A stretch of DNA of 41,006 nucleotides from a virus: IMG/VR virus record IMGVR_UViG_3300050821_004847, positions 1 through 41,006 of that record, one strand, 5' to 3'. Shown here in pieces: positions 1 to 32,042 of the stretch. The translations under genes and the position numbers were made by a program. Within the stretch, counting starts at the first letter, position 1, and every line of letters starts with the position of its first letter. The notes below the pieces were generated by a model. The model searched no databases and was not told where the DNA came from. It saw only the letters and a program-made list of their open reading frames with translations.

Positions 1-1220
1 CTTTCAAGCGATGCCGTGACTTGTTTCCAGTTTTTGAGCGCCAAATCAATGTCGTCAGGGTGCAAATTGGCGATCGTGTAGCGGCCCGATAGTATGTCGT
101 CATTGGTTGCGGTGCCGGCGCAATTAAAATGCCGCATCCGCAACAGGAATTGTTGCCGGCTTAGTTTCTCCTCATCGATCCGCTTTAAAAGTTCGGTGTG
201 TTCTTTGGTTAGGTTGACGGCCTCGGGATCGGTCGTTGGCGGCGCTTGCGGCGCTTGCGGCGGTTTTGGCGGGGTTTGTGGCGGATTCGCTGGCTTTGTC
301 TCGGGCGGCGCCGCCGGCGCCTCAGGCGAGGCCGTAGGGCCCTCGGCGGCCGACTTAGATTCGCCTCGTTGCGCCGCTAATTCCGCCGCATCCGGTGCAC
401 CCATCCTAATTTCGGGCTCTTTCCGCGGGCGGCCAGGCCCGCGTTTAACCGGCTCGGGCCCCGATTCACTGCGCACCGGTCGCATGACGTTCGGCTCGGC
501 AACCTCGGTCTTTTCCGGCGCCGGCCTGATCTCGAGCCCCGGCCCATTCGGTAAACCGGCCGGCGCCGCGGTGCGCCCGTCAAAATTCGGTTCCACAACC
601 CGGCCCTCGGCAACTTTCGCCTGGCCGAATCCCGGCTCGCCAAACCGGTCGTCGAGCTCGGCGATCGCGCAACCTTTCAAAACGTCGCCAAAATTGTCGC
701 GCAGGTTAAAACCCCGGGCCCGGAAAAGCAGCATCCGCTTTGGTGCGGTCACCCAGGGCGTTGCCTTTCCCTCTTTGCCTCTCTTGTCCCAAAGGCCGGC
801 AATCTTCGCGTCGGCAACCGAATAGTCGGTCACTAGTTCGGCCTCGCCTTTGCGCTTGGTCGTGACAATGCAAGTGTAATTGTCCTCGAATGGTTGGCCG
901 GTAAATTTCTGTGTGTAGCTCTCACAAAGCCCGCTCGCCCGCACCAGGCCAAGCGGCATGTCACCGAAAATCGTCGCCCGATTATTAACAATATAGGTCG
1001 ATTGCAAAGCGGCCATCGGCGACATTCCGACCTCGAGGCCGTTGGCAATAACAATAAAACAATCGGTTTCGCTAAAACCGGGCGGGCAGAATTGCGATTT
1101 ATTTATGGCTTTCGCAAACCGAAAAATGTCGTCCATATTCGACAGCACAATTCCGCGGTTCCCAACTGGCACCGAGCCGAGCCGGGACATTAAAGAAACG
1201 TTTTGGTTTTCGTCGTTCAT
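1..1220 (-). CDS. recT: RecT-family single-strand annealing protein, N-terminal part (cut by the window edge)
   Basis: Minus-strand frame from ATG at 1220, open to base 1 (406 codons plus two bases). Residues 29-190 match the phage RecT family: an F-R-F-A-K-A-I segment, a CPPGF turn at 45-49, GLEVGMSPMAALQS at 61-74, and a conserved RMLLFRARGFNLRDNFGD stretch at 162-179. RecT proteins anneal single-stranded DNA in phage recombination and replication. A Pro/Ala-rich linker (about 210-332) carries an AT-hook-like RGPGRPRK at 260-267. The start is supported by an ATGA overlap with the upstream 51-aa ORF. The reading frame continues exactly into the frame at the right edge (40604-41006), which would give a protein of about 540 aa if the molecule is circular. 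The family assignment is confident; the function of the C-terminal extension is unknown. Confidence 0.85.
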   Translation of the reverse strand, partial: MNDENQNVSLMSRLGSVPVGNRGIVLSNMDDIFRFAKAINKSQFCPPGFSETDCFIVIANGLEVGMSPMAALQSTYIVNNRATIFGDMPLGLVRASGLCESYTQKFTGQPFEDNYTCIVTTKRKGEAELVTDYSVADAKIAGLWDKRGKEGKATPWVTAPKRMLLFRARGFNLRDNFGDVLKGCAIAELDDRFGEPGFGQAKVAEGRVVEPNFDGRTAAPAGLPNGPGLEIRPAPEKTEVAEPNVMRPVRSESGPEPVKRGPGRPRKEPEIRMGAPDAAELAAQRGESKSAAEGPTASPEAPAAPPETKPANPPQTPPKPPQAPQAPPTTDPEAVNLTKEHTELLKRIDEEKLSRQQFLLRMRHFNCAGTATNDDILSGRYTIANLHPDDIDLALKNWKQVTASLE

Positions 1221-1372
1221 CGAGTCTTAATTTTGGTTTTTGGGTGTTTGATTGGTATATCTGGCCGCGGGTCGCCCCAACGCCTGAAGCGTTTCCGATG
1301 GGCGCCACACATGCCGTGATCTGTTGCGGCGCGAAAGCATCCGCGCACTGAACAGTCTTTTACTTTCGACAT
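1217..1372 (-). CDS. Small zinc-finger protein (51 aa)
   Basis: A 51-codon ORF whose TGA overlaps the recT start (ATGA) and whose ATG overlaps the stop of the preceding 28-aa ORF (TGATG). It has a C7-x4-C12-x9-C22-x2-H25 pattern followed by KRFRRWGDP. This matches the small zinc-binding module found at the front of many phage HNH nucleases and as free small proteins. The C-terminus is Lys-rich. No nuclease motif follows, so it is probably a DNA- or RNA-binding accessory protein. Function is inferred only from the Cys/His spacing. Confidence 0.6.
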   Translation of the reverse strand: MSKVKDCSVRGCFRAATDHGMCGAHRKRFRRWGDPRPDIPIKHPKTKIKTR

Positions 1373-1458
1373 CACCGGCCTTTCGCTAACCGGTGCCCTA
1401 AAGCCATTCCCGGTGAAAACAGCGCCCGTATGATATCAAGATTAGGGTTACGTTTCAT
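1372..1458 (-). CDS. Micro-ORF, 28 aa
   Basis: An ATG lies immediately after the TAA of the preceding 29-aa ORF (TAAATG), and its TGA overlaps the ATG of the zinc-finger ORF (TGATG). The peptide is short and basic at its C-terminus (HRLAKGR), with an amphipathic middle. Only the seamless junctions on both sides support it; no family is recognised. It could be a translational relay rather than a functional peptide. Confidence 0.35.
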   Translation of the reverse strand: MKRNPNLDIIRALFSPGMALGHRLAKGR

Positions 1459-1548
1459 TTACGGTGTGATCCCCGGCATGTTGGCAATTAGCCAACCAAT
1501 CGCGACGCCCATGCTGATAGCGAACGAGACAACGAGTATTATTTTCAT
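1459..1548 (-). CDS. Single-pass membrane micropeptide, 29 aa
   Basis: ATG at 1548, six bases after the stop of the 56-aa ORF, ending in TAA directly abutting the next ATG. The peptide begins MKIILVVSFAISMGVAIGWL, one hydrophobic helix of about 20 residues with a short polar tail. Probably a membrane peptide of the early operon; no family recognised. Confidence 0.45.
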   Translation of the reverse strand: MKIILVVSFAISMGVAIGWLIANMPGITP

Positions 1549-1554
1549 ATAGGT

Positions 1555-1725
1555 TTATTTGTGGTTGATGCGGATCCATTCCCGCACGACGCGCGGGTGG
1601 CGCCGCATTACTTGGCACTGGCGCCGGCAATCGAGATAAATTGCGATGCCGAAAATTGCGAAAGCGCAACCGATCAAAATCAGGATAGCGGACAGGATAA
1701 GAGCAAAATCAAGCAAGTCGTTCAT
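1555..1725 (-). CDS. Small membrane protein, 56 aa
   Basis: Start chosen at ATG 1725, four bases after the VRR-NUC stop, rather than an in-frame ATG upstream that would overlap that gene. A hydrophobic segment at residues 5-28 (FALILSAILILIGCAFAIFG) is followed by a Cys/Arg-rich cytoplasmic-type tail (CRRQCQVMRRHPRVVREW). One transmembrane helix with a basic C-terminus is predicted. Function unknown. Its place between a nuclease and RecT is a common site for phage accessory genes. Confidence 0.55.
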   Translation of the reverse strand: MNDLLDFALILSAILILIGCAFAIFGIAIYLDCRRQCQVMRRHPRVVREWIRINHK

Positions 1726-1729
1726 AGGG

Positions 1730-2143
1730 TTAGAAAAGCGATTGGGCAATTGAGATAGCTTCAGCATAGTCACCGGTGACTAAGACTCGGAAACCGGCCT
1801 CTTTAAGCCGGCCGGTGATCTCTAGCTGTTCAGGGGAAAGGGTGTTGTTTGAAACCTTGAATTCGATAAAGAGCGTTTTGCCGCTCATAAAATGAATGCA
1901 ATAATCGGGCTCGCCGATTGTTGCCCGAGTCCGCTTGGTCGGGTTGGTATGATGGACAAGCGCAATCTTGTCCTCATGCCGTTTTAGGAAACCGCTGAAA
2001 TCGGCGTGCAACCGGCGCTCGAGCCGGTGATTGCCGCGGGCGACAGCCTCGGCCCAAGTCGGGCCCTCTTGTTTGCCATATTGTTCGCCCTCGGCCGGAT
2101 CCGCGAATCGGTCGGCCGGGATTTGTCCTGGGAGAATAGGCAT
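1730..2143 (-). CDS. VRR-NUC domain nuclease (PD-(D/E)XK superfamily)
   Basis: A 137-aa protein. The C-terminal half shows the VRR-NUC core: GEPDY at 78-82 (catalytic Asp80), then LFIEFKV with Glu94 and Lys96 (E-x-K), then SPEQLE with Gln106, and a final strand FRVLVTGDYAEAI. A candidate upstream acidic residue is Glu42. Stand-alone phage VRR-NUC proteins are small structure-specific or Holliday-junction-type nucleases. Lying in one operon with RecT, this one plausibly acts in phage recombination or replication-intermediate processing. The N-terminal 40 residues are not recognised. Confidence 0.8.
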   Translation of the reverse strand: MPILPGQIPADRFADPAEGEQYGKQEGPTWAEAVARGNHRLERRLHADFSGFLKRHEDKIALVHHTNPTKRTRATIGEPDYCIHFMSGKTLFIEFKVSNNTLSPEQLEITGRLKEAGFRVLVTGDYAEAISIAQSLF

Positions 2144-6642: not shown

Positions 6643-6981
6643 TTAGTTTTGTTTTGGGGTTGGTGAAGCTTGCTGCTCGAGTCGTTTAATCGATTCGAGA
6701 ATAGCTTGCTGGTTGAGAATCGCGATCTTTAGCTGCGCGTCTAATTGTTTTTGTGTCTCGATCGCTTGTTTGTAACCGCCGGCGATCGCGTGGATTTCGT
6801 TAATCGCTCGATCGAAATCCTCGCGGGTTTCCTGCTCGGCCTGGTGCCCTTGCCAAAGGTTGCCGCCGCCGGCCAATACGATAAGCGCCATGACAATTTT
6901 TTGGCCGTTGTCGCCTTTGAGTAGTGTGGTCAGGATTCCGTCGCTACGGTTTCCTTGAGCCGGCCGAGCATCCGAGTCCAT
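6643..6981 (-). CDS. Membrane protein with coiled coil (holin or spanin candidate)
   Basis: A 112-aa protein. One hydrophobic segment at 29-41 (IVMALIVLAGGGN) is followed by a long Gln/Glu-rich coiled coil (about 43-105). It overlaps the end of the upstream fibre gene by 52 bp; a shorter start at the Met before ALIVLAG would remove the overlap. Position just before the lysis genes and the single membrane helix make it the best holin or accessory lysis candidate in the genome, but no holin family is recognised. Confidence 0.5.
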   Translation of the reverse strand: MDSDARPAQGNRSDGILTTLLKGDNGQKIVMALIVLAGGGNLWQGHQAEQETREDFDRAINEIHAIAGGYKQAIETQKQLDAQLKIAILNQQAILESIKRLEQQASPTPKQN

Positions 6982-7754
6982 AAGCTTTTATCCTTGGTTT
7001 TGAGCTCTATCATTTGCTCTTCAAAAACCTGAAAGGCATTTTTGAACGCAATGAAAAGGGTTAAATCAAAAATCTCGTTAAAATAAAAAGCTAGGGTTGC
7101 TTGCAGAACGAGCACTTCTAAAAGCCCATTGCTTTGCAGTCTTAACGCTACATTCGAAAATTGATTCGGCGTCACCGGCGCCCCGAGCGCAATCCGATAT
7201 TGAATCGATGATAAAGGCCGCACATCGGCCGGCAACGTGCCGACCGGCACCCAAGCGCCAGGTTGCACTTCGTTTCCAGTTAAGCGCCGCAATTCGCCAA
7301 AGACTTCCAATTGATCGCCAAAGTGCAAAGTCCGATAAGCGAGTTGAGCCAAAAACCATCCGCCGGCCGCGGGAAATGTTTGCGGTACGCCCGCGGCCCG
7401 CATCCAGACGCCATTGCGCCGGCCGTAAACCTGGCCATCTTGCGGCGCCTCTTCGATTCCCGCATAGGCCGCCGGCAACCGTTGGTTGGTGTCCAGGCAA
7501 TAGGTGAGCGGCCCCTCGGCCGCAAGCGAGATTTCCATATAACGCGGTGCGCTCACGTTATCCGTGAAGGAAAAGCCGGCCTGTAACCGGGTCGAATTAA
7601 CAGCGCCTGGCGCCGCCGCGGATCCGGAATAATTGAACCAAAGCGTTGCCGGCCCGTAGTTCACAATCGACCATTGATCGCCCCGGGTGTACCACTCGAG
7701 CGTTTCGGTTTGCAGGGTGCCCAGTTGTCGCGTGTTTTGCCGGCTTGCTTGCAT
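6930..7754 (-). CDS. Tail fibre/tip protein sharing an N-terminal module with the fibre at 10277-12310
   Basis: A 274-aa protein; start at ATG 7754, two bases past the upstream stop. Residues 1-115 are clearly paralogous to the start of the 677-aa fibre (QASRQNTRQL vs QANRQNTRQL, WSIVNYGP vs WSILNYGP, FTDNVSAPRY vs FTDSASAPRF, YGRRNGVW vs YGRRNATW). The middle resembles the C-terminal receptor-binding part of fibres (a YRIALGAPVTP stretch), and the end is helical. It likely attaches to the same site as its paralogue. Receptor specificity cannot be deduced. Confidence 0.65.
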   Translation of the reverse strand: MQASRQNTRQLGTLQTETLEWYTRGDQWSIVNYGPATLWFNYSGSAAAPGAVNSTRLQAGFSFTDNVSAPRYMEISLAAEGPLTYCLDTNQRLPAAYAGIEEAPQDGQVYGRRNGVWMRAAGVPQTFPAAGGWFLAQLAYRTLHFGDQLEVFGELRRLTGNEVQPGAWVPVGTLPADVRPLSSIQYRIALGAPVTPNQFSNVALRLQSNGLLEVLVLQATLAFYFNEIFDLTLFIAFKNAFQVFEEQMIELKTKDKSLWTRMLGRLKETVATES

Positions 7755-7756
7755 AG

Positions 7757-10120
7757 CTATTGTGGCCCCTGATCGCACAGAGATAATTGCGTACGGTGAG
7801 CGGTAACACCCGCACTGCCAACACCAAGAATTATCATAGTGTCCGGCCCCGAGAGAAGCCGGGTTTGTATCGTGATCGTCGGATTGGTGCCGGAAACTAG
7901 TATCGTGAACACCACGGCGCCGCCACTGATATCCTCGGGTACACCGGTCGTTTTCGTGTGTAGAGTTTGCCGCAAGCGGTTGTTACTGTTGCAATCCCAT
8001 TGAAACAACCAAGACGTATTAACTGCCGAGCTCGAATAAAGCGCCGGCACAATCACCACCTCGACAAATGAATTGCCGCCGCGAGGAATGGCAAAAGCGC
8101 CTGTCCATAGCGTTTGCCAACCGGTCGTTAAGGTGAGTTGGTTGGGCTCGATGAGCCTGGTCGTCCCGCGGCGTTGATCAACATAGAGTTTATTCGTTAA
8201 ATGATCGTTCGCGGTCGGCGCCGTTGGAACATGGATACCCGTATTGCTGACCTCCGCAACCGGGGTTGTACTGGTGCCGGCTTGGAACCCGATGCGGTTT
8301 GTGTTCGCGTTCGCCGCGATAATATTAATATGGCCGGGCGTAATATTTATCCCGAACCCGGTTGTGCCGCCGCCCCATAAAGCAATGTGTCGCGAAATGT
8401 CGCGCGGATCACTCTGTGCGAGCGAGCCAAAGCTAATCGAATTAAATATCGTCAAAACACCCGTAGCCCGAACAGCATTAAAAACCTGTCTGACAGTTCC
8501 GCCGGCGTCAATCGCATCGAGCGAAAAGCCTGTTTCCCCGGAATTTCTGAACAAATGAAAATGGTCTTGGGTAGTAGATCCAAAGGCTAAAGTCACCCGG
8601 CCAGTAGTAGTGCCGAGGAGTTTACTTATTAATGTATTACCTTGGATGATGAGCGCCCCGGTCATGGTGTCGCCGGCTTTGCGCACCCCATTATTAGCGT
8701 CAAGAATCGGGCGCCGATTGGTGCCGTCGTTGTTTTCGATTTGCGGTTGGGTATTGACTGAATGGCAACGAATAATGATTCCGGTGCCAACCGCTTTATA
8801 AATTCGGCCGCCACTAAAAAACGTCACCCCGAGCCCATCGGTCGTAAACCCGAGCTCGCCGGCCATCGAGTCGCCGTTGCGGTTGACCGTACTTTGCAAC
8901 CCGGCTTGCACGTTATTTTGACCGTGTACTTGCGGGCTCAAAGCAACTTGGCTCGCCAAGATCGTCACCGTTCCGCCAAGCGCCAAGCGGTTCCAATGAA
9001 GCCCATCGCTTAAAATCATATCACCTACATTGAAAGAAAGCCCACCAACGTCAGGCGTTCCCGGTGGCCAGTTGCCGCCCACCTCAACGATCAGATATTC
9101 ACCTACTCTCGCTTGATCGGCCGGAAATAACGCGGTGCCGGTGTACCCGCTCCCAGGCGTATAGCGCACCGTGCCGGCCGGCGCATTAGCCGCCCCAATC
9201 AAATGCAAATCGTGAGCGAAAAGCCGGTCAACATAGTTTCGGGTTGCTGCTTGATTAGGCGCCTCGGGATCCCTGAAAAGCACTAGGTCACCGGTCATCG
9301 GCCTGGATCCGTCCCGCGGCAGTAGCGGGTCAAGGTCGGCCGGCGGGATCGCGGCAATTTCAAGGTCGACATATTCTTTACTGGCCGCGTGCTCATCGTC
9401 GGTCGGCAAGCCGGCCAAGGTTAGGTCGCCGGTCATCGGTCGGGAACCATCCCGCGGCAAGAGCGGATCAAAATCGGGCGCCGGCGGTACTGGGATCGCC
9501 GAAATAGACTCGTCAACGTATTGCCTCGAGGCCGCGTGAACGCTTTGCGTAGGCAAGCCGGCCAGAGTTAGATCGCCAGTCATTGGCCGGGATCCGTCCC
9601 GCGGCAAGAGCGGATCAAAATCAGGGTCCGGCGGCAACGGAATCAAGGCAATCGAATTGTCAACATACAGTCTCGAGGCCGCGTGCCCGGGTTGCGTCGG
9701 TAAACCGGCCAGGGTTAGATCACCGGTCATGGTGTCGCCGTTGCGGTTCACTGTGCTCTCGAGCCCGTCCTGCACGTTATCCTGGCCGTGTACTGGCGGA
9801 TCGACCGTAACGTTGCGGGCAAGCACCGGTGCCCCGCCGAGTAAGATTCGATTCCAGGCGCCACCGTCACTGATAATCCAATCGCCTTGATTAAACGGTT
9901 GATTGCCGATCGGCCCGGCCGGCGGCCAGGTTCCCCCGATCTCGACTATTAGGTAGTCGCCCACCCGCACTTGATCCGGCGGCAAAATAGCGGTGCCGGT
10001 GTACCCGCTCCCAGGCGTATAGCGCACCGTGCCGGCGAGCGCATTAGCCGCACCAATCAGGCGTAAATCTGTGCTCGGCGCACTAACCCCGCCACCAAAA
10101 CCGCCTCTAGGTCTTGCCAT
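7757..10120 (-). CDS. Large repetitive tail fibre protein
   Basis: A 787-aa protein; ATG 10120 is preferred over an upstream in-frame ATG because a coupled 55-aa ORF ends just inside it. After a Gly-rich start, a module of about 110 aa (19-130) recurs at 305-420. Between the copies lie four repeats of about 45-50 aa built on R-P-M-T-G-D-L-T-L-A-G-L-P-T...H-A-A-S-R-x-Y-V-D, the GDTMTG-type repeat common in phage fibres. The C-terminal part (about 430-787) is a typical trimeric fibre shaft plus tip. It is a probable host-range determinant. The repeats make length variation by recombination likely. Confidence 0.75.
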   Translation of the reverse strand: MARPRGGFGGGVSAPSTDLRLIGAANALAGTVRYTPGSGYTGTAILPPDQVRVGDYLIVEIGGTWPPAGPIGNQPFNQGDWIISDGGAWNRILLGGAPVLARNVTVDPPVHGQDNVQDGLESTVNRNGDTMTGDLTLAGLPTQPGHAASRLYVDNSIALIPLPPDPDFDPLLPRDGSRPMTGDLTLAGLPTQSVHAASRQYVDESISAIPVPPAPDFDPLLPRDGSRPMTGDLTLAGLPTDDEHAASKEYVDLEIAAIPPADLDPLLPRDGSRPMTGDLVLFRDPEAPNQAATRNYVDRLFAHDLHLIGAANAPAGTVRYTPGSGYTGTALFPADQARVGEYLIVEVGGNWPPGTPDVGGLSFNVGDMILSDGLHWNRLALGGTVTILASQVALSPQVHGQNNVQAGLQSTVNRNGDSMAGELGFTTDGLGVTFFSGGRIYKAVGTGIIIRCHSVNTQPQIENNDGTNRRPILDANNGVRKAGDTMTGALIIQGNTLISKLLGTTTGRVTLAFGSTTQDHFHLFRNSGETGFSLDAIDAGGTVRQVFNAVRATGVLTIFNSISFGSLAQSDPRDISRHIALWGGGTTGFGINITPGHINIIAANANTNRIGFQAGTSTTPVAEVSNTGIHVPTAPTANDHLTNKLYVDQRRGTTRLIEPNQLTLTTGWQTLWTGAFAIPRGGNSFVEVVIVPALYSSSAVNTSWLFQWDCNSNNRLRQTLHTKTTGVPEDISGGAVVFTILVSGTNPTITIQTRLLSGPDTMIILGVGSAGVTAHRTQLSLCDQGPQ
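9221..9742 (-). repeat. Tandem coding repeats in the fibre gene
   Basis: Four units encode the motif M-T-G-D-L plus H-A-A-S-x-x-Y-V-D, the inner three highly similar at DNA level and separated by a Pro-rich P-D-F-D-P-L-L-P-R-D-G-S linker. Outside them, an exact 47-bp direct repeat (9132-9178 and 9990-10036) marks the two copies of the flanking module. The pattern is coding and in frame, so it is a protein repeat, not a CRISPR array. Confidence 0.8.
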
Positions 10121-10276: not shown

Positions 10277-12310
10277 TTAGTTCATGGTTAGACTAAAAAT
10301 GTGCGAAATATAAATTGCTTGCGTGCCGTGAACCCCACCCGTCACCGGGATCCGCGTAAACAAATCAAGAGCACCCGAACTACCGAGTTGTAAATATCCT
10401 TGATCTAATTGTTGAATGGCGGGTGTATTGGTATCGGCCTCGGCAACACACGGACACAATTGCATCTGTGATAAGGTCAATGGCCGATAACCCACCGGCA
10501 AAATGCACAATTGCGTCGGTAGTACGGTTGGCGGGTTATATGGCGGCAAAGAGGCCCCGGCCGCTCGTTGGAGTTGCCCGATAATTTGGACCAGGCCGCC
10601 GCCCTGCAAATGCCGATAGCGTAGAGTCGCGGTGCCGGCCCACCCGGCTCCTTGAACCGAAATCGTTTGAATCGGCCCCGGCCCGATCACGGTATCAACG
10701 TAATCGCGCCGGGTTAAATGTTCATTGGCCGTAGGTTGCGCGGTTGCGCTAATATTTCGGCCACGGATATCGAGCGGATTATTGGCAATCGCTTCCTTGA
10801 AAACTAATTCGTCGGCCGTTTGATTCAAAGCTAATCGGCCAATGCGAAAACCGCCATTGCCGGGTGTGTTGTGATTAATGAAAACAATCGTGCTTTCACC
10901 CGGGGTCAACGTTTGATTGTTTCCCGGCTCGGCATGAGCCAAAATTACATTTGCCAAATTCCACGTCGAGCCATTTGGCCGGGTGATTTCAAAGCGGCCA
11001 CCGGCAAGCACCGTGTCGCCGCGGATAATGGCCCCGCCCTCCATTTCCACCCGCCCGTCGCCGTGCGATAAAAACAAAGCCTCGCCCAAGACTTGGCCCC
11101 CGTTCATTCGGTAAAAGTAAAGCCCGGGCCCTTTCGGCGCCGTTGGGATATACTGCCCAACGATGGACCACCGGCCACTGTCGTTTTCGCTGAAAGATAT
11201 TTCGGCGTTTTCGCTGGTCGGTCCATTGATCCGAAATGCTGTGCCGGCAACATCGCCAGTCACAACCAAGCCCCGAACCGAAACCCGGCCGTTGGTTGGA
11301 TCAATGAAGAAATCGCGAATTGGTGTAAATGGCGGGCCGCCTCGAGTAATTGCGAACCCGGTTTGCGCTCCGGCAAATGCCGCGCCGAGCGTAAAACGAA
11401 CCGTGTTAGTACCATCAACAAGAAGAATCAATGAAGCTTCACCGGCTTCCATACGGATCACTGCGTCACCAAAAGCTGGAGGAGCGAATTGCCTGATGAT
11501 AAGGCCGCCGCCCTCGATCCGTAGCGTCCCGGTCATCGTGTCGCCGGTTAGGAGTACGGCCATTCTCGTCGGCGAGCTCTCAAGAAAATGCCGGGTGACG
11601 TATTCATTCGGCAAGGCAATGTCGAGATTGCCCGTTTTATAGGCCGCCTCGCACTCCGTCTCATGCAGAACACAATGACCATCTGGGCGCCGGATCGAGA
11701 ACGGAAAATCAAGAATCGCGCTGCCATCACTGTTCATTCGCGCGAAATAAAGCCCATTCGGCCGATCTGGTAGAGCTAGGTGCGCTGCACCTAAGATCCA
11801 ACGCGGTTCATTGAATCGTCCAAGAATAATCGCGCAAATCTCTTCACCATTTAAAGCGAACACCGCTTGCGGATCGCTATTGATAATCAACGGGCCGGTC
11901 ATGGTGTCGCCGAGAATATTAACCGCTCGTTGCCAGGTCGCGTTGCGCCGGCCATAGAGCACCCCGTCAAGCGGCGCCTCTTCCACGTCGCCGGTGCCCC
12001 CGCCCGGCGGTAAAGAGCCGGCCCCGTAGCGTTGATTGGTGTTCAGGCAATAGGTCAGGCCGCCGGCTTCTGACGTGAGCGAAAGTTGCAAAAACCGCGG
12101 GGCACTGGCCGAATCGGTGAACGAATAGCCGGGCTCGAGCTTGGTCGATTGCACCTCCCCGGGCGACGCATCAACCCCGGGCGTATAGGAAAACCAAAGG
12201 ATTCCCGGGCCATAGTTGAGAATCGACCACTCGGCCCCTTGAGTGAACCACTCCATGATTTCTTGAGCGCCGGCGGCCAGTTGCCGGGTGTTTTGGCGAT
12301 TCGCTTGCAT
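10277..12310 (-). CDS. Tail fibre protein
   Basis: A 677-aa protein. An N-terminal attachment module (1-120) is shared with the 274-aa fibre at 6930-7754. At least two G-D-T-M-T-G repeats (NILGDTMTGPLIIN and LLTGDTMTGTLRIEGG) precede a beta-rich shaft. The C-terminal 110 residues (from ISVQGAGWAGTATLRYR) form a separate small tip domain. The start lies seven bases after the preceding gene. A fibre role is inferred from these repeats and position downstream of gpI and gpH-like genes. Confidence 0.72.
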   Translation of the reverse strand: MQANRQNTRQLAAGAQEIMEWFTQGAEWSILNYGPGILWFSYTPGVDASPGEVQSTKLEPGYSFTDSASAPRFLQLSLTSEAGGLTYCLNTNQRYGAGSLPPGGGTGDVEEAPLDGVLYGRRNATWQRAVNILGDTMTGPLIINSDPQAVFALNGEEICAIILGRFNEPRWILGAAHLALPDRPNGLYFARMNSDGSAILDFPFSIRRPDGHCVLHETECEAAYKTGNLDIALPNEYVTRHFLESSPTRMAVLLTGDTMTGTLRIEGGGLIIRQFAPPAFGDAVIRMEAGEASLILLVDGTNTVRFTLGAAFAGAQTGFAITRGGPPFTPIRDFFIDPTNGRVSVRGLVVTGDVAGTAFRINGPTSENAEISFSENDSGRWSIVGQYIPTAPKGPGLYFYRMNGGQVLGEALFLSHGDGRVEMEGGAIIRGDTVLAGGRFEITRPNGSTWNLANVILAHAEPGNNQTLTPGESTIVFINHNTPGNGGFRIGRLALNQTADELVFKEAIANNPLDIRGRNISATAQPTANEHLTRRDYVDTVIGPGPIQTISVQGAGWAGTATLRYRHLQGGGLVQIIGQLQRAAGASLPPYNPPTVLPTQLCILPVGYRPLTLSQMQLCPCVAEADTNTPAIQQLDQGYLQLGSSGALDLFTRIPVTGGVHGTQAIYISHIFSLTMN

Positions 12311-12317
12311 AGTGGTT

Positions 12318-14117
12318 TTAGGCGGGCAAAAGGGTCGCTTCCAAATCGGTCGCCGCGGGTGGTGTAATTTGGATTAGTCCTCTCGCCGTTAAAGTATCAA
12401 TGTTGGGTAGAGCCGTCCCGTATTGAATGCCAGGGGCTCTTCCCACGGTTATATGTCCTAAATCGGTGACGTATAAATCAGTCGTTGTATTGGCACGAAA
12501 ATCTAGATTACCTGGTCCAATGCCAGCAACTAAACCACCGTTGGAAGCGTAAGCCCCAAACCCCGTATTATATAGAGCTCCTCCAAAACCCATGAGAATG
12601 GTGCTGTCAAAAATCGCGGCAAGTCCCACTCTATTGTTCATCGCAAGACAATATCCGGTGAAAACGATTTTACCGCCATTTTCAACCAAAAACCCATAAC
12701 CGCTGCTAATAAGATTTCCTGGACTAAAAGAAGCGGCACACTCACTGCAATTCAAAAACGCTCCGCGCGGAACCCTGAAACCGTTTCCGCATTGATTTAC
12801 CCTAACAAGATTAAAATTATGTGTACCAAAATATACAATCACGGCATCAGAAGTATCATCCGTAAATCTGGCGATACCAACGAAATCAATGGTTGTTGAC
12901 CTAAATGAATCAAGAGTAAGTCCAATTCCGATCGTATCGCCGATAATAGCAAAATTTTGTAATAAGCTTAATCCCGAAATTTCAAAACCCGTGATACCAG
13001 AAACAACATTAAGAACACTCCTGAATTTAATCATTGTTCCTTGATTAACCGCAGTTAAATCAAAAGCGATCGAGGCCGGGAAATTAATGGTGATAACCTG
13101 CCCCACTACATTGGCAACTTGAAAAGTATTATTGAGAGTCGCATGAGGAGCGGTTGCAATCGTTACGTTTACTCCGTCAATCATCACCCAATCGCCGACG
13201 ATGATGTCGATGGCACCCGTAATAGTTATCGGAACTGTATAAGCGCGACTAACTCCAGTAGTTGGACCCACGCTTGTGATATTATGAACTATTCCCAGGC
13301 TGCCAATTATCCGAATTTGCTGGGCCTGAGGGTGATTCACCACTATCGGCGCAATAATCGGATCAAGATTGGTATCGACATTAATCGTAGCGAAGAGATT
13401 GGGCGGAATATAAGTTTCGGCTAAACTATCTAAAGCTTCTGAAATGGTTTGGAAACTGGTATCTGGTGCCCCCCCTGGATGGCTCAATGGTACATAGAGA
13501 TCTAGATTGAAACGCAAAAACTTTTGCGAAATCGTAACACTAAACGGGTCAAGCGAATCTTCTATAAGTTCAATCCCGTCCCCGGCCACTGCCCGCTTAA
13601 ACCGCAGGGTGTTGGCGATCTTTTCATGGAACCAACCCGGGCCGACCGTTTCGGCCCCAATATTCTCGGCCAGGATATCGCCGCTTGCCCCAACGATTAT
13701 GGTTGGTGGTTGCGACCGATCAACCATTACCTTGATTTTGAAAGCGTGAATCGATTGAACGGCCGGGTCCACGTTATCGGCGCCCGTCGCCATCACGTTA
13801 GAGGCCGTATATAGCCGGTCGGCCTCGGTCCCGATATGCGCCATCACCCCGAGCTCGCGAAGTAGGAAAGCAACGGGCGCCTGGCTTGAATTAAAGGCCG
13901 CATCGATCAGGAAAACGCCGTCACCCTGGTCAACCTGTTGGGTGATCGCGACATCCATCACATGATTTATTAGCCCGGTGAGCGGAAAAATATCGTCCGG
14001 TGCGGTCGCCTGGCCACTGCCAACGACAACGGTAGTAATCACTAATTGTTCGCCGGCTTGAGCTCGGCCCAACATATCGCGGCCAACGTTGGTCCAAATT
14101 TGCTGGTTGATACTCAT
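12318..14117 (-). CDS. P2 gpH-like tail fibre with beta-helix C-terminus
   Basis: A 599-aa protein. The N-terminal 180 residues (starting SINQQIWTNVGRDMLGRAQAG) match the phage tail-collar/fibre N-terminal domain found in P2 gpH-type fibres that dock on gpI/gpJ baseplates (LRELGVMAHIGTEADRLYT, VKVMVDRS-type core). From about residue 185 the sequence becomes an extended parallel beta-helix with many I/V/N turns. Base composition drops sharply to AT-rich over the same stretch (about 12320-13560), a sign that the tip was acquired separately. The start overlaps the preceding 42-aa ORF (ATGA). Confidence 0.75.
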   Translation of the reverse strand: MSINQQIWTNVGRDMLGRAQAGEQLVITTVVVGSGQATAPDDIFPLTGLINHVMDVAITQQVDQGDGVFLIDAAFNSSQAPVAFLLRELGVMAHIGTEADRLYTASNVMATGADNVDPAVQSIHAFKIKVMVDRSQPPTIIVGASGDILAENIGAETVGPGWFHEKIANTLRFKRAVAGDGIELIEDSLDPFSVTISQKFLRFNLDLYVPLSHPGGAPDTSFQTISEALDSLAETYIPPNLFATINVDTNLDPIIAPIVVNHPQAQQIRIIGSLGIVHNITSVGPTTGVSRAYTVPITITGAIDIIVGDWVMIDGVNVTIATAPHATLNNTFQVANVVGQVITINFPASIAFDLTAVNQGTMIKFRSVLNVVSGITGFEISGLSLLQNFAIIGDTIGIGLTLDSFRSTTIDFVGIARFTDDTSDAVIVYFGTHNFNLVRVNQCGNGFRVPRGAFLNCSECAASFSPGNLISSGYGFLVENGGKIVFTGYCLAMNNRVGLAAIFDSTILMGFGGALYNTGFGAYASNGGLVAGIGPGNLDFRANTTTDLYVTDLGHITVGRAPGIQYGTALPNIDTLTARGLIQITPPAATDLEATLLPA

Positions 14118-14242
14118 GCGATTGGTTCCTCAACGGTCACGTATTTCCAAGATAGGCTCACGACAGCAACAAAGACGGCCAAGTTTGATTCGGTAGGACC
14201 GACCGTGAAAATCAAAACGTTCGTATCGGCCTTGGCTTTCAT
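14114..14242 (-). CDS. Small ORF (42 aa) carrying a duplicated gpI C-terminal motif
   Basis: The ATG overlaps the stop of the TIG ORF (ATGA at 14242-14239), and the TGA overlaps the fibre start (ATGA at 14117-14114). Its end, VSLSWKYVTVEEP, repeats VSLPWKYVTSEAP in gpI; the match also holds at DNA level (14136-14154 vs 15049-15067). It looks like the displaced original 3' end of gene I after insertion of the TIG array. Whether the peptide has its own role is unknown. Confidence 0.5.
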   Translation of the reverse strand: MKAKADTNVLIFTVGPTESNLAVFVAVVSLSWKYVTVEEPIA

Positions 14243-14814
14243 TTCTGGGCTTGTTCTTTGGCAGGTCGAGAAGTCAAAGGTGTCGGGGTTTCGAATCGCG
14301 GATCCGTTACATATACGGGCACCGCACGCGCGGCCGTCCCAACATCTAACGGTAGAGTCGTGTGAATTTCTGCACTGTTGACGAAAGTTGTGGCCACCGG
14401 GGCCCCCTCCCAGACAATAACCGAAACCGGCAAAAAGTTCTGACCGATAACCGTTAAGATAGGCAACACATGATTCGCCTGTGAGATATTCGGAATCAAT
14501 TGCGTGATGATAGTTTTAGCCGTGACCGCGAAGTTCACTTGATTGCTATCGAGTGTCCCTGTCCTAACCAGCACCGGAACGTTCCTCGGCAAACCAACGG
14601 CGAGTAAATCGTCAGCATCCAAATGGTTGGCACTGACGAAAGTTGTGGCCAATTCAACGCCATCAAAGACAATCACGCTGGTCGATTGAAAATTGAACCC
14701 CTCGACAGAAAAGGAAATTTCTTCTCCTTCGAGTGAAGTATTTGGAATCAATAGAGCTAAAATCGGATTGATCTCAATTGTGACAATAAAGTTGAGTGAA
14801 TTGGAGTCGGCCAT
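14239..14814 (-). CDS. IPT/TIG Ig-like domain array (probably the frameshifted extension of gpI)
   Basis: A 191-codon ORF encoding two IPT/TIG Ig-like domains, recognisable by I-x-x-L-I-P-N, V-E-G-F-N-F / V-I-G-Q-N-F, S-V-I-V-F-D-G and L-P-x-x-V-P-V-x-V. The same frame is open upstream of its ATG to the T10 tract at 14940-14949, encoding most of one further domain (VIYFDGNPIPTTFLDSQHL...VYVRTN). It therefore reads as the C-terminal part of a 474-aa gpI-TIG fusion made by a -1 shift rather than a separate gene, although ATG 14814 could also start a stand-alone product. Ig-like domains on phage baseplates or fibres usually aid weak surface binding. Confidence 0.65.
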   Translation of the reverse strand: MADSNSLNFIVTIEINPILALLIPNTSLEGEEISFSVEGFNFQSTSVIVFDGVELATTFVSANHLDADDLLAVGLPRNVPVLVRTGTLDSNQVNFAVTAKTIITQLIPNISQANHVLPILTVIGQNFLPVSVIVWEGAPVATTFVNSAEIHTTLPLDVGTAARAVPVYVTDPRFETPTPLTSRPAKEQAQK

Positions 14815-14876
14815 ATTTGTCCTTACATAAACGGGTTTGGTGCCTTCGGTGCCTACGTTGAAAGGGTTTGTACTGG

Positions 14877-15662
14877 TCAGGTGTTGACTATCGAGAAAGG
14901 TTGTAGGAATTGGATTGCCATCAAAATAAATGACGCTAGAAAAAAAAAATTGGTGCCGATCACTTCCAAGCTTATGTCGGCCCCCGGCACAGCACTTGGC
15001 GGGTTAATCGCGTTGACAATCGGTGTCCCGAGCTCCGGCGCCTCGCTAGTCACATATTTCCAAGGTAACGAAACCGCCGCCCACCAAATTTCTAGATCAC
15101 TTCGCCGGGCCCGAATTATCCCCTCATCCCATCGGGTCAACGGTTTATAAGCTCGGACGATTTGTGCAACCCGGGCCTCGGCCACCGGGTCGATCACTTC
15201 TTGATCAATTAAAATCCGGAACCTATATCGGTCGTGCCAGTTCCACCCGTTAGCGTCCGGCGTTTCGTCCGGATAATTCGGCGGGAAAGGAATCTTGTAT
15301 TCAAACCATTCTTGAACCGTCGCCGAGCCCGGCGGGAAAAACTGGTCGCAAACGTCTTGGATCAGTTGCACGGTGCCTTTGCGGGTGTGCCAATCCAGGC
15401 TCGATTTTATCACCAGTTGTTTCAGGGCGACGGGTGCGGCCGCGTCGAAGAAATCTACGTGAAACTGCCATGCTAACAAATCCAAAAGCTTGTCGTTGGT
15501 GATCGTATCAATGGCCGGCAAAATGATGGTCTGATTGATATCGTCGATGAGCTCGCGGAATTGCCGGTCAAGCGCCTCGCAAATCGCTTGCACGTTCACG
15601 TCGTCGGCAATCGATGGCGGGCAGGCATCGATCAAACGGCTTTGTCTGATCGGTACGCTCAT
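14877..15662 (-). CDS. I: P2-type tail protein I (baseplate)
   Basis: The ORF encodes 261 aa; its start overlaps the gpJ stop (ATGA). Residues 1-195 are typical of P2 gpI (a RLIDACPPSIADD start, I-D-x-L-P-I-like helices, LAWQFHVDFFD, HTRKGTVQLIQ). gpI caps the wedge and connects J to fibre proteins. At about residue 217 a TIG domain begins (TPIVNAINPPSAVPGADISL) and is broken after VIGTNFFF by the T10 run. In the zero frame the last 20 residues are unrelated hydrophobic sequence, while the -1 frame completes the domain. The zero-frame product would be a truncated form. Confidence 0.85.
   Translation of the reverse strand: MSVPIRQSRLIDACPPSIADDVNVQAICEALDRQFRELIDDINQTIILPAIDTITNDKLLDLLAWQFHVDFFDAAAPVALKQLVIKSSLDWHTRKGTVQLIQDVCDQFFPPGSATVQEWFEYKIPFPPNYPDETPDANGWNWHDRYRFRILIDQEVIDPVAEARVAQIVRAYKPLTRWDEGIIRARRSDLEIWWAAVSLPWKYVTSEAPELGTPIVNAINPPSAVPGADISLEVIGTNFFFLASFILMAIQFLQPFSIVNT
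14940..14949 (-). other. T10 slippery tract: frameshift or transcript-slippage site in gene I
   Basis: Ten consecutive T on the coding strand fall exactly where the gpI frame must shift by -1 (equal to reading 11 T) to join the TIG array. With 11 T the loop between N-F and S-V-I has three residues, as in the two downstream TIG domains; with 8 T it would have two. The joined frame has 475 codons from 15662 to 14239. Either programmed ribosomal or RNA-polymerase slippage, or a homopolymer deletion or sequencing error, explains it. Confidence 0.7.
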
Positions 15663-16882
15663 AAATCCTCGAATCCGCGGAACGTCACGGTTTTTTGCCC
15701 GGGTGCGTTGACGGCCAATTGATTAAAGGCGAGCTCTTGATAAGCCGGGATCACCGGTACAAAGGCCCCGGGCGCCGAGCCGGTGCCGGCCACCCGTTTG
15801 GCGCCGGCCTGGATCACCCGGCGCACGAGTTCGTCGGGAATAATGTCGGCGCCGATCGCGCCGCGTTCCCATAAAATCCAGTCGTCCACGGCCTGGTTTA
15901 CTTTGTCGGTGATTTCGGCAATCACGATTTCGTTTTCGCGCAACGCCCACCAATCCAGGCCCACCGGATATTCAACCGTGTCCGGTGTAAATACGCTCAC
16001 GTAGTCGGCCACCGGCCGCATCCGCCGCGGGTTGCAAGCGGCCAAGACATCGGCCAGGATTTCCGGCGGCGGGATTTGGCCCCCGCGCAAAAGCGGATAT
16101 AGCCAGGCCTCGCCGGCGATCGCGGGTGCCGAGTGTACGACACATTGAATGATATCTGGGTGCGCCCGCAAAGCCCAGTAGCGGTATGCATCCTCGGGCC
16201 CGCACGTTGAAAAACTTTCCGGGGTTAGCCAGGTTCGGTATCGGTAACGGTCGTCGTTTTCGTCGTCGGCCCCGCCGGCGGTTTCGTTAATGTTGCGAAC
16301 ATTGACGCCGAAAGGTTGATTCCAGTTGACCAAGGCCGAAACCTGGCCGGCAACGTAACCGTTTCCAACCCGGCCTTGCGTTAAGCATTTGGCCGGGCTC
16401 GATCCGCTCAAGGTTAGAGCCGGGATCACAATCGTTTCGGTCGTTTCGAAAACGAGCTCGTTGATTGTCTGGGCTTGCGCCCCAGGCGAAATCACGGCGT
16501 CAATGGTCATTGTCGCGGTCAAGGTAAACTCGAGCGTAGTTGCCGCGGGTTGTGCCGGAACCCGGTCGGCTCGCGGCCCATACAGGGCGGCCAAGGCGGT
16601 GAGGAAATCGCCCACCGAGTATTTGAGCAAATTCATTTTGCACCCCTGATCAATCAAAACCCGCAATTGAACGATCAGTTGACAAACGGTCAAAAGCAGC
16701 ATCCGCACCGGATCCGCGGGTGCCAGGGTTTTCGCAATGTTAGTCAGGGCCAAATAGGCCTCTTCATAGTCGGCGATCGCCTCGGCTTTGATTATTTCCG
16801 GATTTTTTTGGGCGAATTCAACATCCGGCACATGGGCCAAAGAGGGTGGGTACGTAGGCTGATATATGGCGCCGTTGCTCAT
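15659..16882 (-). CDS. J: Baseplate protein J
   Basis: A 407-aa protein of the P2 gpJ / Mu gp47 baseplate wedge family: Pro-rich start, ISPGAQAQT (about 132-140), a central AGGADDENDDRYRYRTWLTPESFSTCGPEDAYRYWA block that is the family hallmark, and HPDIIQCVV. It overlaps gpI by four bases and gpW by four bases, as in P2-like operons. It forms the outer part of the baseplate wedge with gpW and gpI. Length is slightly longer than P2 gpJ (302 aa), the extra sequence being N-terminal. Confidence 0.9.
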   Translation of the reverse strand: MSNGAIYQPTYPPSLAHVPDVEFAQKNPEIIKAEAIADYEEAYLALTNIAKTLAPADPVRMLLLTVCQLIVQLRVLIDQGCKMNLLKYSVGDFLTALAALYGPRADRVPAQPAATTLEFTLTATMTIDAVISPGAQAQTINELVFETTETIVIPALTLSGSSPAKCLTQGRVGNGYVAGQVSALVNWNQPFGVNVRNINETAGGADDENDDRYRYRTWLTPESFSTCGPEDAYRYWALRAHPDIIQCVVHSAPAIAGEAWLYPLLRGGQIPPPEILADVLAACNPRRMRPVADYVSVFTPDTVEYPVGLDWWALRENEIVIAEITDKVNQAVDDWILWERGAIGADIIPDELVRRVIQAGAKRVAGTGSAPGAFVPVIPAYQELAFNQLAVNAPGQKTVTFRGFEDL

Positions 16883-22038: not shown

Positions 22039-22560
22039 TTAGGCTCGGCCGATCTTTTGCCGGATCCTGGCCGCGTAATCGACGCCCTTTATCTTGCAGA
22101 TAAAATTATCTTTATCGATGTGAAACTCTTCCACGTCTTCGTAAAGGCCGCGGAAACTAACAACCTCGAGCTCGGTTGAGGCCGCGCCGGCGGCGCCCAC
22201 TTCCATGTTTCCGAAATTGATTCCTTTCGGCATCCCGCCGATAAAAAAACGCCAACCTTTGTATTCGGCCCGGTTCGTGCCACTGTCCCGGCCCTGGTGG
22301 CAGCACCAGATATCCAGATTCACCGAATCCTGTACCGCTAGGCGCATCGTGTTTTCGTCCGGAACGTGCCAGTTGAGCACAATTGACATTGGCCCAAAAT
22401 GGCAATGCGTCGGCGCATCGATTGATCCCATCACGCCGGCGCCTTTGATTTCGTCGGAAAGCGGGGTTGCGTTCGGTAAGGTGCAATCGGCCAAGCCGAG
22501 CAAATTATATTCCTCGAGGAAAACACTGTAGTTCGATATGCGTTGGGGCCAATAAGGCAT
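22039..22560 (-). CDS. FII: Major tail tube protein
   Basis: A 173-aa protein with ribosome binding site AAAGGA eight bases before ATG 22560. It matches the P2 FII tube family: N-Y-S-V-F-L-E-E-Y-N-L-L-G-L-A-D-C-T-L-P opening, G-A-G-V-M-G-S-I-D, R-A-E-Y-K-G-W-R-F-F, and G-x-A-S-T-E-L-E-V. Tube subunits stack as hexamers inside the sheath. In other P2-like phages it directly follows the sheath gene; here a homing endonuclease separates them. Confidence 0.92.
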   Translation of the reverse strand: MPYWPQRISNYSVFLEEYNLLGLADCTLPNATPLSDEIKGAGVMGSIDAPTHCHFGPMSIVLNWHVPDENTMRLAVQDSVNLDIWCCHQGRDSGTNRAEYKGWRFFIGGMPKGINFGNMEVGAAGAASTELEVVSFRGLYEDVEEFHIDKDNFICKIKGVDYAARIRQKIGRA

Positions 22561-22575: not shown

Positions 22576-23580
22576 TTAAGCGGCCATTTGAAACGGAATA
22601 ATTCTCCGAAGTCTAAGGACCATTGTCTTAAACTTGTCGGCTCGCTCTTTCTTTCTCGAAAGCGCGGGGAATCCATCAGGATAAAGAAGCTTGGCAAGCT
22701 CTATCGCGTATTTTGAATGAACATTAACCGAATAGAAGTCATTACCATATTTCGTAATGCTCTTTCTCAATATCGGTTTTGCGTCTGTAAACCGTTCAAT
22801 AAATGTTTTGTATTGCTGAATGAACAGCAAAGAAGCACTGACTAGCCTAATTGTTGGTTGATTCTTACCCATCATTCCCAAGCTGCCGTCGCCATCTATC
22901 GCGCCGCGCCAAAAATGAAGGTTGTTCGCCAATTCTTCCGATACTTGCAAGGTGTGCGTTTTTCGTTGTGTTATTCCGTAACCCTTCAATTTTTCGGCCA
23001 TACTTCGCGAAACAATTTTCATTACCGCATAGGATGAGATTCCACTCGGGCGATCATAAAATCGTACGCGATGCTCGGCTTTCAGGAATTTTCTGAATTC
23101 TTCAAGGTGCGGTGCGTCATGTTGCTGTAGCACAATCGAAATAGCGTTTTGGCTGTTAACGCATCCATCGGTTGCCAACATCCCGAGCCAATAAGCACTT
23201 TCGTCGTTCAACTGATCGAAAACCCTGGAATCAAAAGGAAGTGGGCTTCTCTTATCGGTTATTTCTACGCCATTCCTCCGTAGGATAAAACCAACCCCAG
23301 TTTGCGAACATCCGAACAGGTTAGCTATTTCGGATTGACTCAACTTCTCCTTGGTGTATGCGCGAATCATTTCCGCTTCTTGTTCGGGCGAAAACATTTT
23401 TGGGCACGATTTCTGGTTCGGTCTTTCCTTCCTCGTGGTCGCCCTAATCCCTTTGCGTTTCAGCAAACGTCCTATGGTTTGCTGAGAGCATCCACAAAGC
23501 GAAGCAATAGCTTTTTGCGGCATACCACGCTCGGTATATGCGCTAATAACAAAGGAAACATTTAAACGGTTTTGAATCAT
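22576..23580 (-). CDS. LAGLIDADG homing endonuclease with two N-terminal helix-turn-helix motifs
   Basis: A 334-aa protein inserted between sheath and tube genes. Two LAGLIDADG motifs are visible: WLGMLATDG at 131-139 (Asp138) and WRGAIDGDG at 224-232 (Asp231), spaced as in a single-chain, two-motif enzyme. The N-terminus has two helix-turn-helix units (PQKAIASLCGCSQQTIGRLL at 21-40 and SQSEIANLFGCSQTGVGFIL at 81-100). Its ATG overlaps the sheath stop (ATGA), so it is co-translated. Base composition is more AT-rich than the flanking structural genes. It would cut an allele lacking the insert and spread by repair. Confidence 0.88.
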   Translation of the reverse strand: MIQNRLNVSFVISAYTERGMPQKAIASLCGCSQQTIGRLLKRKGIRATTRKERPNQKSCPKMFSPEQEAEMIRAYTKEKLSQSEIANLFGCSQTGVGFILRRNGVEITDKRSPLPFDSRVFDQLNDESAYWLGMLATDGCVNSQNAISIVLQQHDAPHLEEFRKFLKAEHRVRFYDRPSGISSYAVMKIVSRSMAEKLKGYGITQRKTHTLQVSEELANNLHFWRGAIDGDGSLGMMGKNQPTIRLVSASLLFIQQYKTFIERFTDAKPILRKSITKYGNDFYSVNVHSKYAIELAKLLYPDGFPALSRKKERADKFKTMVLRLRRIIPFQMAA

Positions 23581-25088
23581 GCTACTGCTAGTTCGGCCGT
23601 TTCCCCTTCAAATAAAGTAGAAAGATACGATTGATCAACCTCGAGTAGCCCCTCGATCCATTCGGCCGGGCTCGGGGTAAGTGAGAAAATGTGAAACCGA
23701 TAAACACCGTCCAGCAAATCCTCGCGCGGGTTATCCTCATGGCGGAATTCTACTCGGCCGCCAAGTAGAGCTCCCGAGGCCGCCAGGCCGGCCAACCAGT
23801 TATTAAACGAATTGACAACCAGATCGATTAGGCGCCGGTTCCCGGGCCAATCAACCCGGTCTTGCAACGTCAAAACAAAGATATTACCAATCCAATCGTT
23901 CATCCGCTTTTGCGGAATCCAAATATCTTTGTAATCGCTCGAGGCGCCGCCGCCGGCCGCGGTGCGGTTACCCCAACTTTTCCAACCGTAAATCGACCAA
24001 TTAAGCGCCGTGACAACGCCCGACCGGTTCAGATTATTCGCCTGGAAAATCGAGAGTTTGAGCTCGGTTCCATCGGCTAAATATGTCCCGTTGCATTTGA
24101 GCGGTTTATTGCTCGGTGACCAGTAGGGAACACCTCCGCCCTTGGTCGCGTCGGTATGCATTTGCAACGGGCCCCATTGGCTCGAAAAATGATAGCGCAG
24201 ATCGCCAAGGCCTGGATACAAAAAGCAAACGTCTTGCCGCGGATCCATCATGTTATTAGCAACTTTCCACGGCAAGACATCGATCACGCTAGTGATCGAA
24301 TCGTCAACGTCGATCGCACATCGGCACTTGAAACAACCGTTGATATCCTCGGCTTTAGTGGCCAGTACCGCGGCAACCTCCGGGTTACTGGAAAACCCGG
24401 GCGCCAGCAATATCCCGGGAATCAAACCGGTTTGCGGGAATACTTGTTCGACAACCTCAATTCCTGTCTCGGCCCCGGTATTGACATCTATTCCGCCGAT
24501 AATGTGAGCCGCGGTCACGCCGGCGGGGTTGATCACAAAACCGACAATCTCAATTTCGGAGTCATCGTCCGGAATCGCCCCGGTCGAAATCCGGGTGATA
24601 ATTACAGAAAGGTCTTCAGCGAAACTCAGCACATAGTCAACATCACGCTCGTACTCGACGGCCGGCGTTGCCCCCGGTTCGCGCACCACCAGGTTCCTAA
24701 CAATAATCCGGTTGTTGTTCGTGTTTACCGTCCCGTCCACAAGGTCCAAGGTCGTCGCAACTAACGGGGTCCGGTGCGCCGGCAAAGCTGGATTTAAAAC
24801 GTTGATATAACAGACAGGCGAAACCCCGAATTTCCGAAAGGCCGAGTCCATATGCTCGCAAAGCGTGAATGCGGCCCAATTGGGCGAATAACCCAGATAA
24901 TCGACGCAATCTTTGAATGATGTGCAAAGAATCGGCCGGTTGACGAACCGCTCGAAATCGTCAACCAAATGCACCGGTGCGCTGCCGATCGGTACATTAA
25001 GCCCGCTTCGGGCAATGAGCAGATTTAAAACCGGGGTCGGCAATTCGCGGAACGAAACGCCATGCCAACCCATCGTTGTAATAGCCAT
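23577..25088 (-). CDS. FI: Contractile tail sheath protein
   Basis: A 503-aa protein with AAGGA upstream of ATG 25088. P2 FI/Mu gpL-type sheath features: F-V-N-R-P-I-L-C-T-S-F-x-D-C-V-D-Y-L-G near 50-70, a long barrel domain, then the conserved C-terminal half with P-S-N-K-P-L-K-C-N-G, AANNLNRSGVVTALN, G-W-K-S-W-G-N-R-T, and D-R-V-D-W-P-G-N-R-R-L-I-D. It drives tail contraction. A clear myovirus marker. Confidence 0.92.
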   Translation of the reverse strand: MAITTMGWHGVSFRELPTPVLNLLIARSGLNVPIGSAPVHLVDDFERFVNRPILCTSFKDCVDYLGYSPNWAAFTLCEHMDSAFRKFGVSPVCYINVLNPALPAHRTPLVATTLDLVDGTVNTNNNRIIVRNLVVREPGATPAVEYERDVDYVLSFAEDLSVIITRISTGAIPDDDSEIEIVGFVINPAGVTAAHIIGGIDVNTGAETGIEVVEQVFPQTGLIPGILLAPGFSSNPEVAAVLATKAEDINGCFKCRCAIDVDDSITSVIDVLPWKVANNMMDPRQDVCFLYPGLGDLRYHFSSQWGPLQMHTDATKGGGVPYWSPSNKPLKCNGTYLADGTELKLSIFQANNLNRSGVVTALNWSIYGWKSWGNRTAAGGGASSDYKDIWIPQKRMNDWIGNIFVLTLQDRVDWPGNRRLIDLVVNSFNNWLAGLAASGALLGGRVEFRHEDNPREDLLDGVYRFHIFSLTPSPAEWIEGLLEVDQSYLSTLFEGETAELAVA

Positions 25089-31131: not shown

Positions 31132-32042
31132 GCGGCAATCTCAAGATTCAATTGCGGCCCGCCGGTGTCGAGGCCGAGCACATCGCACACGAAAAGCTCA
31201 TCATTGCCGGCTCGCGACAGGATTTCGGGTCCGTAGTATTGGTCAAATGCATTTTCACGCAAAACTTTTTGCTCAAATGTGTAAGCATCGAAACCGTTGG
31301 GAAAATTCCAAATTTTAAGGATCGTAATTTTGCCCATATCCATTCGGAATCTTCTCGCTACTGTACCGTTGGTGATTCCGATTTTGTAAAGCGGCCCGGC
31401 CGGCGTTGCGATTCGCAAATAATAAGCAATGGCTGGCTTGTTACGTCTGAATCCGTATTCGACACAATTCGGGCAACCACCATTTAAAAATAAACTATCG
31501 GCTGTAGGTGCCCATTGATGTCCACATTCACAGCGGACTTCTAATTTGGAGTGCGTGTTTTTATACTGGCCAATGACGGTAATTTTACCGCCAGATTTTG
31601 CAGTGATTCGCGAAACCACTTCATCATGAGTCAATCGTTTTAATTCAGCCAGTTTTCGGCCTTTGCATTTTGTGCAACCTTGCCCATTTAAGAGATAACT
31701 TGCCACAATTCCCCATTCATGTCCGCATTCGCAACGGACTAAAAGAGGATCGCAGCGTCGAATGTATCGGCCAATAACGGTAATTCTACCGCGAAAAATC
31801 TCAGCAACTCGGGCAACTACCTCATCGTGAGTTAATCGGTTTAGAATAGTTAGCCTTTTGAATAAACATTTGCGGCAACCTTTTCCGTTCAAGAGATTAT
31901 TTGCCCTCGGTGCCCATTGATACCCACATTCACAGCGCACGGCAATCGGTTGAGAATGTTGAATGTATGGGCCGATAACCGTGATTTTGCCACCATGAAT
32001 CTTTTCGATTCTGGTTACTACTTCATCGTGCGTGAGTCGCAT
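31128..32042 (-). CDS. GIY-YIG-type nuclease with three zinc-ribbon repeats
   Basis: A 304-aa protein. Three tandem units of about 66 aa (1-60, 69-127, 136-194) share L-T-H-D-E-V-V, K-I-T-V-I-G-x-Y and two Cys pairs: Cys37/39 with 56/59, Cys104/106 with 123/126, Cys171/173 with 190/193. These are treble-clef fingers like those (DUF723-type) in phage homing nucleases. The C-terminal 100 residues start AYYLRIATPAGPLYKIGIT with Arg230, the core of a GIY-YIG/T5orf172-like nuclease. It lies between terminase and portal genes. AT-richer than neighbours. Confidence 0.75.
   Translation of the reverse strand: MRLTHDEVVTRIEKIHGGKITVIGPYIQHSQPIAVRCECGYQWAPRANNLLNGKGCRKCLFKRLTILNRLTHDEVVARVAEIFRGRITVIGRYIRRCDPLLVRCECGHEWGIVASYLLNGQGCTKCKGRKLAELKRLTHDEVVSRITAKSGGKITVIGQYKNTHSKLEVRCECGHQWAPTADSLFLNGGCPNCVEYGFRRNKPAIAYYLRIATPAGPLYKIGITNGTVARRFRMDMGKITILKIWNFPNGFDAYTFEQKVLRENAFDQYYGPEILSRAGNDELFVCDVLGLDTGGPQLNLEIAA

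Follow-up and report, generated by a model that had tools for sequence, protein, structure and literature searches.

The stretch of viral DNA analysed here, hereafter the window, is the full 41,006 nucleotides of IMG/VR record IMGVR_UViG_3300050821_004847, and its minus strand carries a run of P2-like tail genes: a gpD-like hub gene, a gpV-like gene, gpU, gpJ, gpI and a tail fibre gene (positions of features at this locus refer to the minus strand unless marked otherwise). The upstream neighbour of gpI is gpJ (15659..16882; Baseplate_J, PF04865, E 1.2e-43). As written, the gpI ORF (14877..15662) encodes 261 aa: a baseplate wedge protein, half of a TIG domain and then a tail read out of frame. 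Residues 28-173 are a Tail_P2_I domain (15144..15581; PF09684, E 3.5e-16), which at 59.8 bits is far above the family cut-off of 20.6 and which also gives a profile match to the R2-pyocin baseplate protein PA0619 (PDB 6u5b; E 4.7e-5). With gpJ on one side and a fibre gene on the other (12318..14117; PHROG 7037, tail fiber, E 6e-20), the identification as gpI made in the first-pass annotation is supported. Between the end of the gpI ORF and the fibre gene is an ORF with its own ATG (14239..14814, 191 aa) that encodes the end of a first TIG domain and the whole of a second and a third.

The body of gpI leads directly into TIG domain 1 (ELGTPIVNAINPPSAVPGADISLEVIGTNFFF), which is interrupted at a run of ten T (14940..14949), read in the gpI frame as AAT TTT TTT TTT CTA (14949..14940, minus strand). 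Beyond the run the gpI frame continues for about 20 unrelated residues to a stop (14877..14939). The -1 frame instead gives about 235 codons (FFSSVIYFDG...VYVRTN) that pass the ATG at 14814 and stay open to the stop at 14239, and the wrong frames of the same stretch contain 2 to 5 stops. An HMM of the TIG repeats matches domain 1 in two pieces that lie in different frames, the N-terminal part (14940..15038) in the gpI frame and the C-terminal part (14776..14946) in the -1 frame, just as had been supposed at first reading. Domains 2 (14518..14778) and 3 (14299..14523) are supported by the alignment and the HMM, and domain 3 by a Pfam TIG match (E 6.2e-6) in the -1 frame ORF as well, so that the count of three domains holds. 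Pfam TIG scores are 26.5 bits for the window (-1 frame) and, for the relative described below, 28.5 bits, against a gathering score of 20.9. When the halves of domain 1 are joined they align without a gap at the corresponding loop, which reads NFQSTSV in domain 2 and NFLPVSV in domain 3, and the equal loop length noticed earlier is thus real. No other run in the window exceeds 8. Taken alone, however, a T10 is unremarkable: given the base composition, some 0.9 A/T runs of length 10 and above would be expected in the window. An antisense ORF over the run (14881-15150, plus strand) was considered and rejected, as its translation diverges and its frame shifts in the relative.

In IMG/VR, gpI as query gave nine loci, one of which, L006 (IMGVR_UViG_3300050821_003152), has a gpI about 57% identical to that of the window and a TIG part that is 86% identical. 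There gpI and all three TIG domains are encoded by a single 482-aa ORF (653..2101), and its Pfam TIG match (residues 222-273) spans the run. Frame continuity past the T10 is therefore not a matter of chance: the wrong frames have stops, and an uninterrupted ORF for this protein exists in an independent relative. The earlier proposal that gpI and the TIG array form one protein is borne out by L006, and on this comparison the normal form of gpI-TIG3 is a single protein; the window copy of the gene lacks one base. The frame of L006 is continuous because the window has one base fewer than L006 at the T10. In the comparison of homologues for 10 versus 11 T suggested by the first-pass annotation, L006 is one base longer at the junction and is in frame, with a run that is itself T10.

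Among 28 long gpI homologues a TIG match is found in one, L006, and of 116 gpI loci taken from viral and bacterial contigs, that of the L006 contig alone has TIG. A/T runs of at least 8 in those 116 loci comprise the T10 of the L006 contig and otherwise A8. Queries with the TIG array, as single sequence and as profile, had the L006 contig as their sole match; INPHARED phages yielded no match to the TIG part and distant matches only to gpI, and a search of viral contigs for the exact junction pattern, with variable run length, gave no match.

For the L006 TIG1 taken alone, with the repeats as alignment, AlphaFold predicts 8 strands (pLDDT 78), with the T10 encoding the loop after strand 2 of the 8; a model of the whole L006 fusion was set aside as its TIG part had pLDDT below 50. 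Fold matches include the TIG domains of EBF3, EBF1 and CAMTA1, at Z 4.5-5.2 and rmsd 2.2-2.3 (about 60 residues), level with other beta sandwiches, and Foldseek with TIG1 gave no match at E <= 0.001. Since the run is inside TIG1, the unshifted product would consist, past the wedge protein, of a domain fragment and a stray tail.

Divergence between the window and L006 differs along the gene; the values are pairwise, from two sequences. The gpI body has dS 2.4 and omega 0.15. Omega is 0.86 for TIG1 before the T10, 0.35 from the T10 to the ATG at 14814 (p 0.013 against 1) and 0.051 for the TIG ORF, where dS is 1.2; the difference in pN between the stretch from that ATG on and the stretch just before it has p 0.0003. 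These substitution patterns mark the TIG part as coding for protein in the -1 frame. Its lower synonymous divergence compared with gpI is in keeping with a module that has been swapped among gpI lineages. Within the module, TIG1 (window 14815-15050) has a pS of 0.39 versus 0.60 in TIG2-3 (p 0.01) together with high amino-acid divergence, a pattern in keeping with diversification of this domain or with its having recombined separately. Synonymous conservation around the T10 was dismissed as a signal, as it is equally low elsewhere in the gene and not significant.

The close gpI relatives L002-L005 (85-86% identity) are without TIG; their gpI ends in ...SLTWKYVTSEAPPPPWNL and overlaps the fibre start. 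In the window the TIG module is flanked by an imperfect 19-nt direct repeat (89%), one copy of which (15049..15067) encodes the WKYVT motif of gpI and the other (14136..14154) the WKYVT motif of a 42-aa ORF. Recombination across this repeat would be expected to yield a TIG-free gpI. The 42-aa ORF (14114..14242) overlaps both the TIG stop and the fibre start, and its end is similar to the SLPWKYVTSEAP motif of gpI; in both the window and L006 the C-terminal half of the ORF that follows the TIG array (SLSWKYVTVEEP) resembles the TIG-free gpI C-terminus. This ORF between TIG and fibre is conserved (window 14114-14242; L006 from 2098), and in L002-L005 there is no module between the WKYVT motifs.

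The account favoured here, to which a probability of about 0.62 is given, is that a mobile module of three TIG domains was added to gpI, that the two are normally in one frame, and that the window carries an accidental indel at the T10 with no dedicated signal. On this account gpI would have gained the Ig-like module C-terminally, and a gene in one frame would give a single gpI-TIG3 protein; the hypermutable run would then have slipped, presumably by accident, to leave the window copy with its frame off by one base. Set against two relatives (35 and 37 kb), the window has no other split gene, and 20 runs of 6 or 7 inside assigned ORFs leave those ORFs unbroken, and so the window sequence is not generally indel-prone; the sole break coincides with the longest run, where sequencing and replication fail most. 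The missing base is either a homopolymer error of assembly or a natural indel in the phage population. If it is natural, RNA polymerase slippage on the U10 may rescue a minority of full-length fusion. Slippage rescue by E. coli RNA polymerase on T7 or T8 is 5-10%, with T preferred (PMC6260861); insertion climbs steeply with run length (PMC5574713), and A11 in Citrobacter tssM1 gives about 20% slippage, with the A9 of Yersinia tssM3 its in-frame counterpart (PMC4256274). From such published slippage it follows that a real T10 would leak some full-length fusion without a dedicated signal. By the same token the T10 of L006 would leak some truncated protein, at rates that, coming from other systems, may not be those of the host.

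What counts against an accident is that the T10 is kept in both phages despite a 24-32% difference in the surrounding DNA (four conserved third bases at the run are not significant), and its presence in both also speaks for the first-pass proposal that the run is a slippery tract from which plain and Ig-decorated gpI are both made. The route would be +1 transcriptional slippage or -1 ribosomal slippage on T_TTT_TTT. As a functional switch, whether by slippage or by reversible change of run length, it would set by the ratio of the two forms how many gpI copies per baseplate bear the three Ig-like domains; no description of such control of decoration on a contractile baseplate wedge protein was found. 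The T10 has the length that transcriptional slippage needs (about 9 or more A/T on the coding strand), slippage on comparable runs is documented, frameshifting adds Ig-like domains in other phage virion proteins (PMC5009743), and in the TIG frame the stretch after the run shows purifying selection (the omega of 0.35). Yet in programmed frameshifting onto Ig-like domains the break would be expected at a domain boundary, so that both products fold, while here it comes after strand 2 of 8. The slippery heptamer for -1 ribosomal frameshifting has no accompanying 3′ RNA structure: in neither the window nor L006 does a stem after the T10 exceed shuffled expectation (z -0.5, -1.0, 0.8, 1.0). U_UUU_UUU is moreover far less shift-prone in E. 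coli than A_AAA_AAG (PMC5009743), and an upstream Shine-Dalgarno stimulator was rejected as weak and not conserved. A second frameshifted case was not found among more than 100 gpI homologues, and the out-of-frame arrangement is not conserved, the sole module-bearing relative, L006, being in frame. The two-form proposal is for these reasons not borne out in its dedicated form, an accidental indel at this error-prone run being the likelier reading, and a functional switch at the T10 is regarded as rather doubtful.

Were the TIG ORF instead a separate protein started at the ATG at 14814, with gpI ending early and the TIG part now a gene of its own, the AAGGA at 14820..14824 could be its ribosome-binding site; the site (duplex energy -5.8 kcal/mol) is conserved in L006, and the constraint is far stronger from this ATG on than before it (0.051 versus 0.35, with the pN difference given above). 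However, an equally strong site precedes 27 of 232 internal ATGs, the ATG is near the last strand of TIG1, its L006 counterpart is internal to one ORF, and the jump in constraint may reflect merely a divergent domain 1, all of which makes a separate protein distinctly unlikely. Least probable is decay, that is, loss of TIG decoration by frameshift with the TIG part a young pseudogene. The unshifted gpI is indeed similar in extent to the TIG-less gpI genes of L002-L005, but the TIG region carries no lesion apart from the frameshift and has an omega of 0.05, and a neat loss could have used the flanking repeat instead.

Phage Ig-like domains are usually guessed to bind weakly to cell-surface glycans. 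The gpI of a contractile baseplate, beside the fibre attachment, joins the virion proteins able to carry mobile Ig-like domains. For Ig-like additions, Fraser 2006, as cited in PMC5009743, is the source for the T3 coat protein, Lactobacillus A2 and Listeria PSA/A118, and chance landing of such modules in or out of frame is described (PMC5009743). As there, the module is C-terminal and mobile, in frame in one phage (L006) and out in the other (window); unlike there, the carrier is baseplate gpI, its domains belong to the TIG type, and the frame is lost within domain 1. The literature search found no papers to the point on gpI with Ig-like or TIG domains. In having a long A/T run the locus resembles Citrobacter tssM1 (A11), Yersinia tssM3 (A9) and Thermus dnaX (A9) (PMC4256274, PMC1088944), and as with the tssM3/tssM1 pair one relative is in frame and the other out; in contrast to these cases, the short form predicted for the window ends in a broken domain. 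Like PA0619 of R2-pyocin and Tri1 of diffocin, the window gpI is a baseplate wedge protein by gpJ and a fibre gene, whereas, apart from it and L006, the gpI members found here lack TIG domains. The diffocin triplex has a single Tri1 (CD1372), with a C-terminal region that leads to the tail fibre (PMC10996793). From gene order CD1372 is probably the gpI counterpart, and by its position the TIG domains would be on the fibre side of the baseplate. The window and L006 form a matched pair at the same T10, one in frame and one a base off, in which functional recoding could be distinguished from slippage rescue and from an accidental indel; production of both forms would offer a simple means of setting partial baseplate decoration.

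Elsewhere in the window, an ORF at 22576-23580 resembles LAGLIDADG homing endonucleases and has a helix-turn-helix domain; on one side of it is the tail tube gene (22039-22560) and on the other a large ORF (23577-25088), located where a sheath gene would be. Downstream of the fibre, the genes at 6930-7778 and 10277-12310 have an alike N-terminal part (MQA.RQNTRQL...); both sit closer together in the relatives G001 and G002, and so the intervening stretch differs. The ORF at 31128-32042 adjoins the portal gene and has matches to CapR homology and DUF4379 treble-clef zinc-finger domains.
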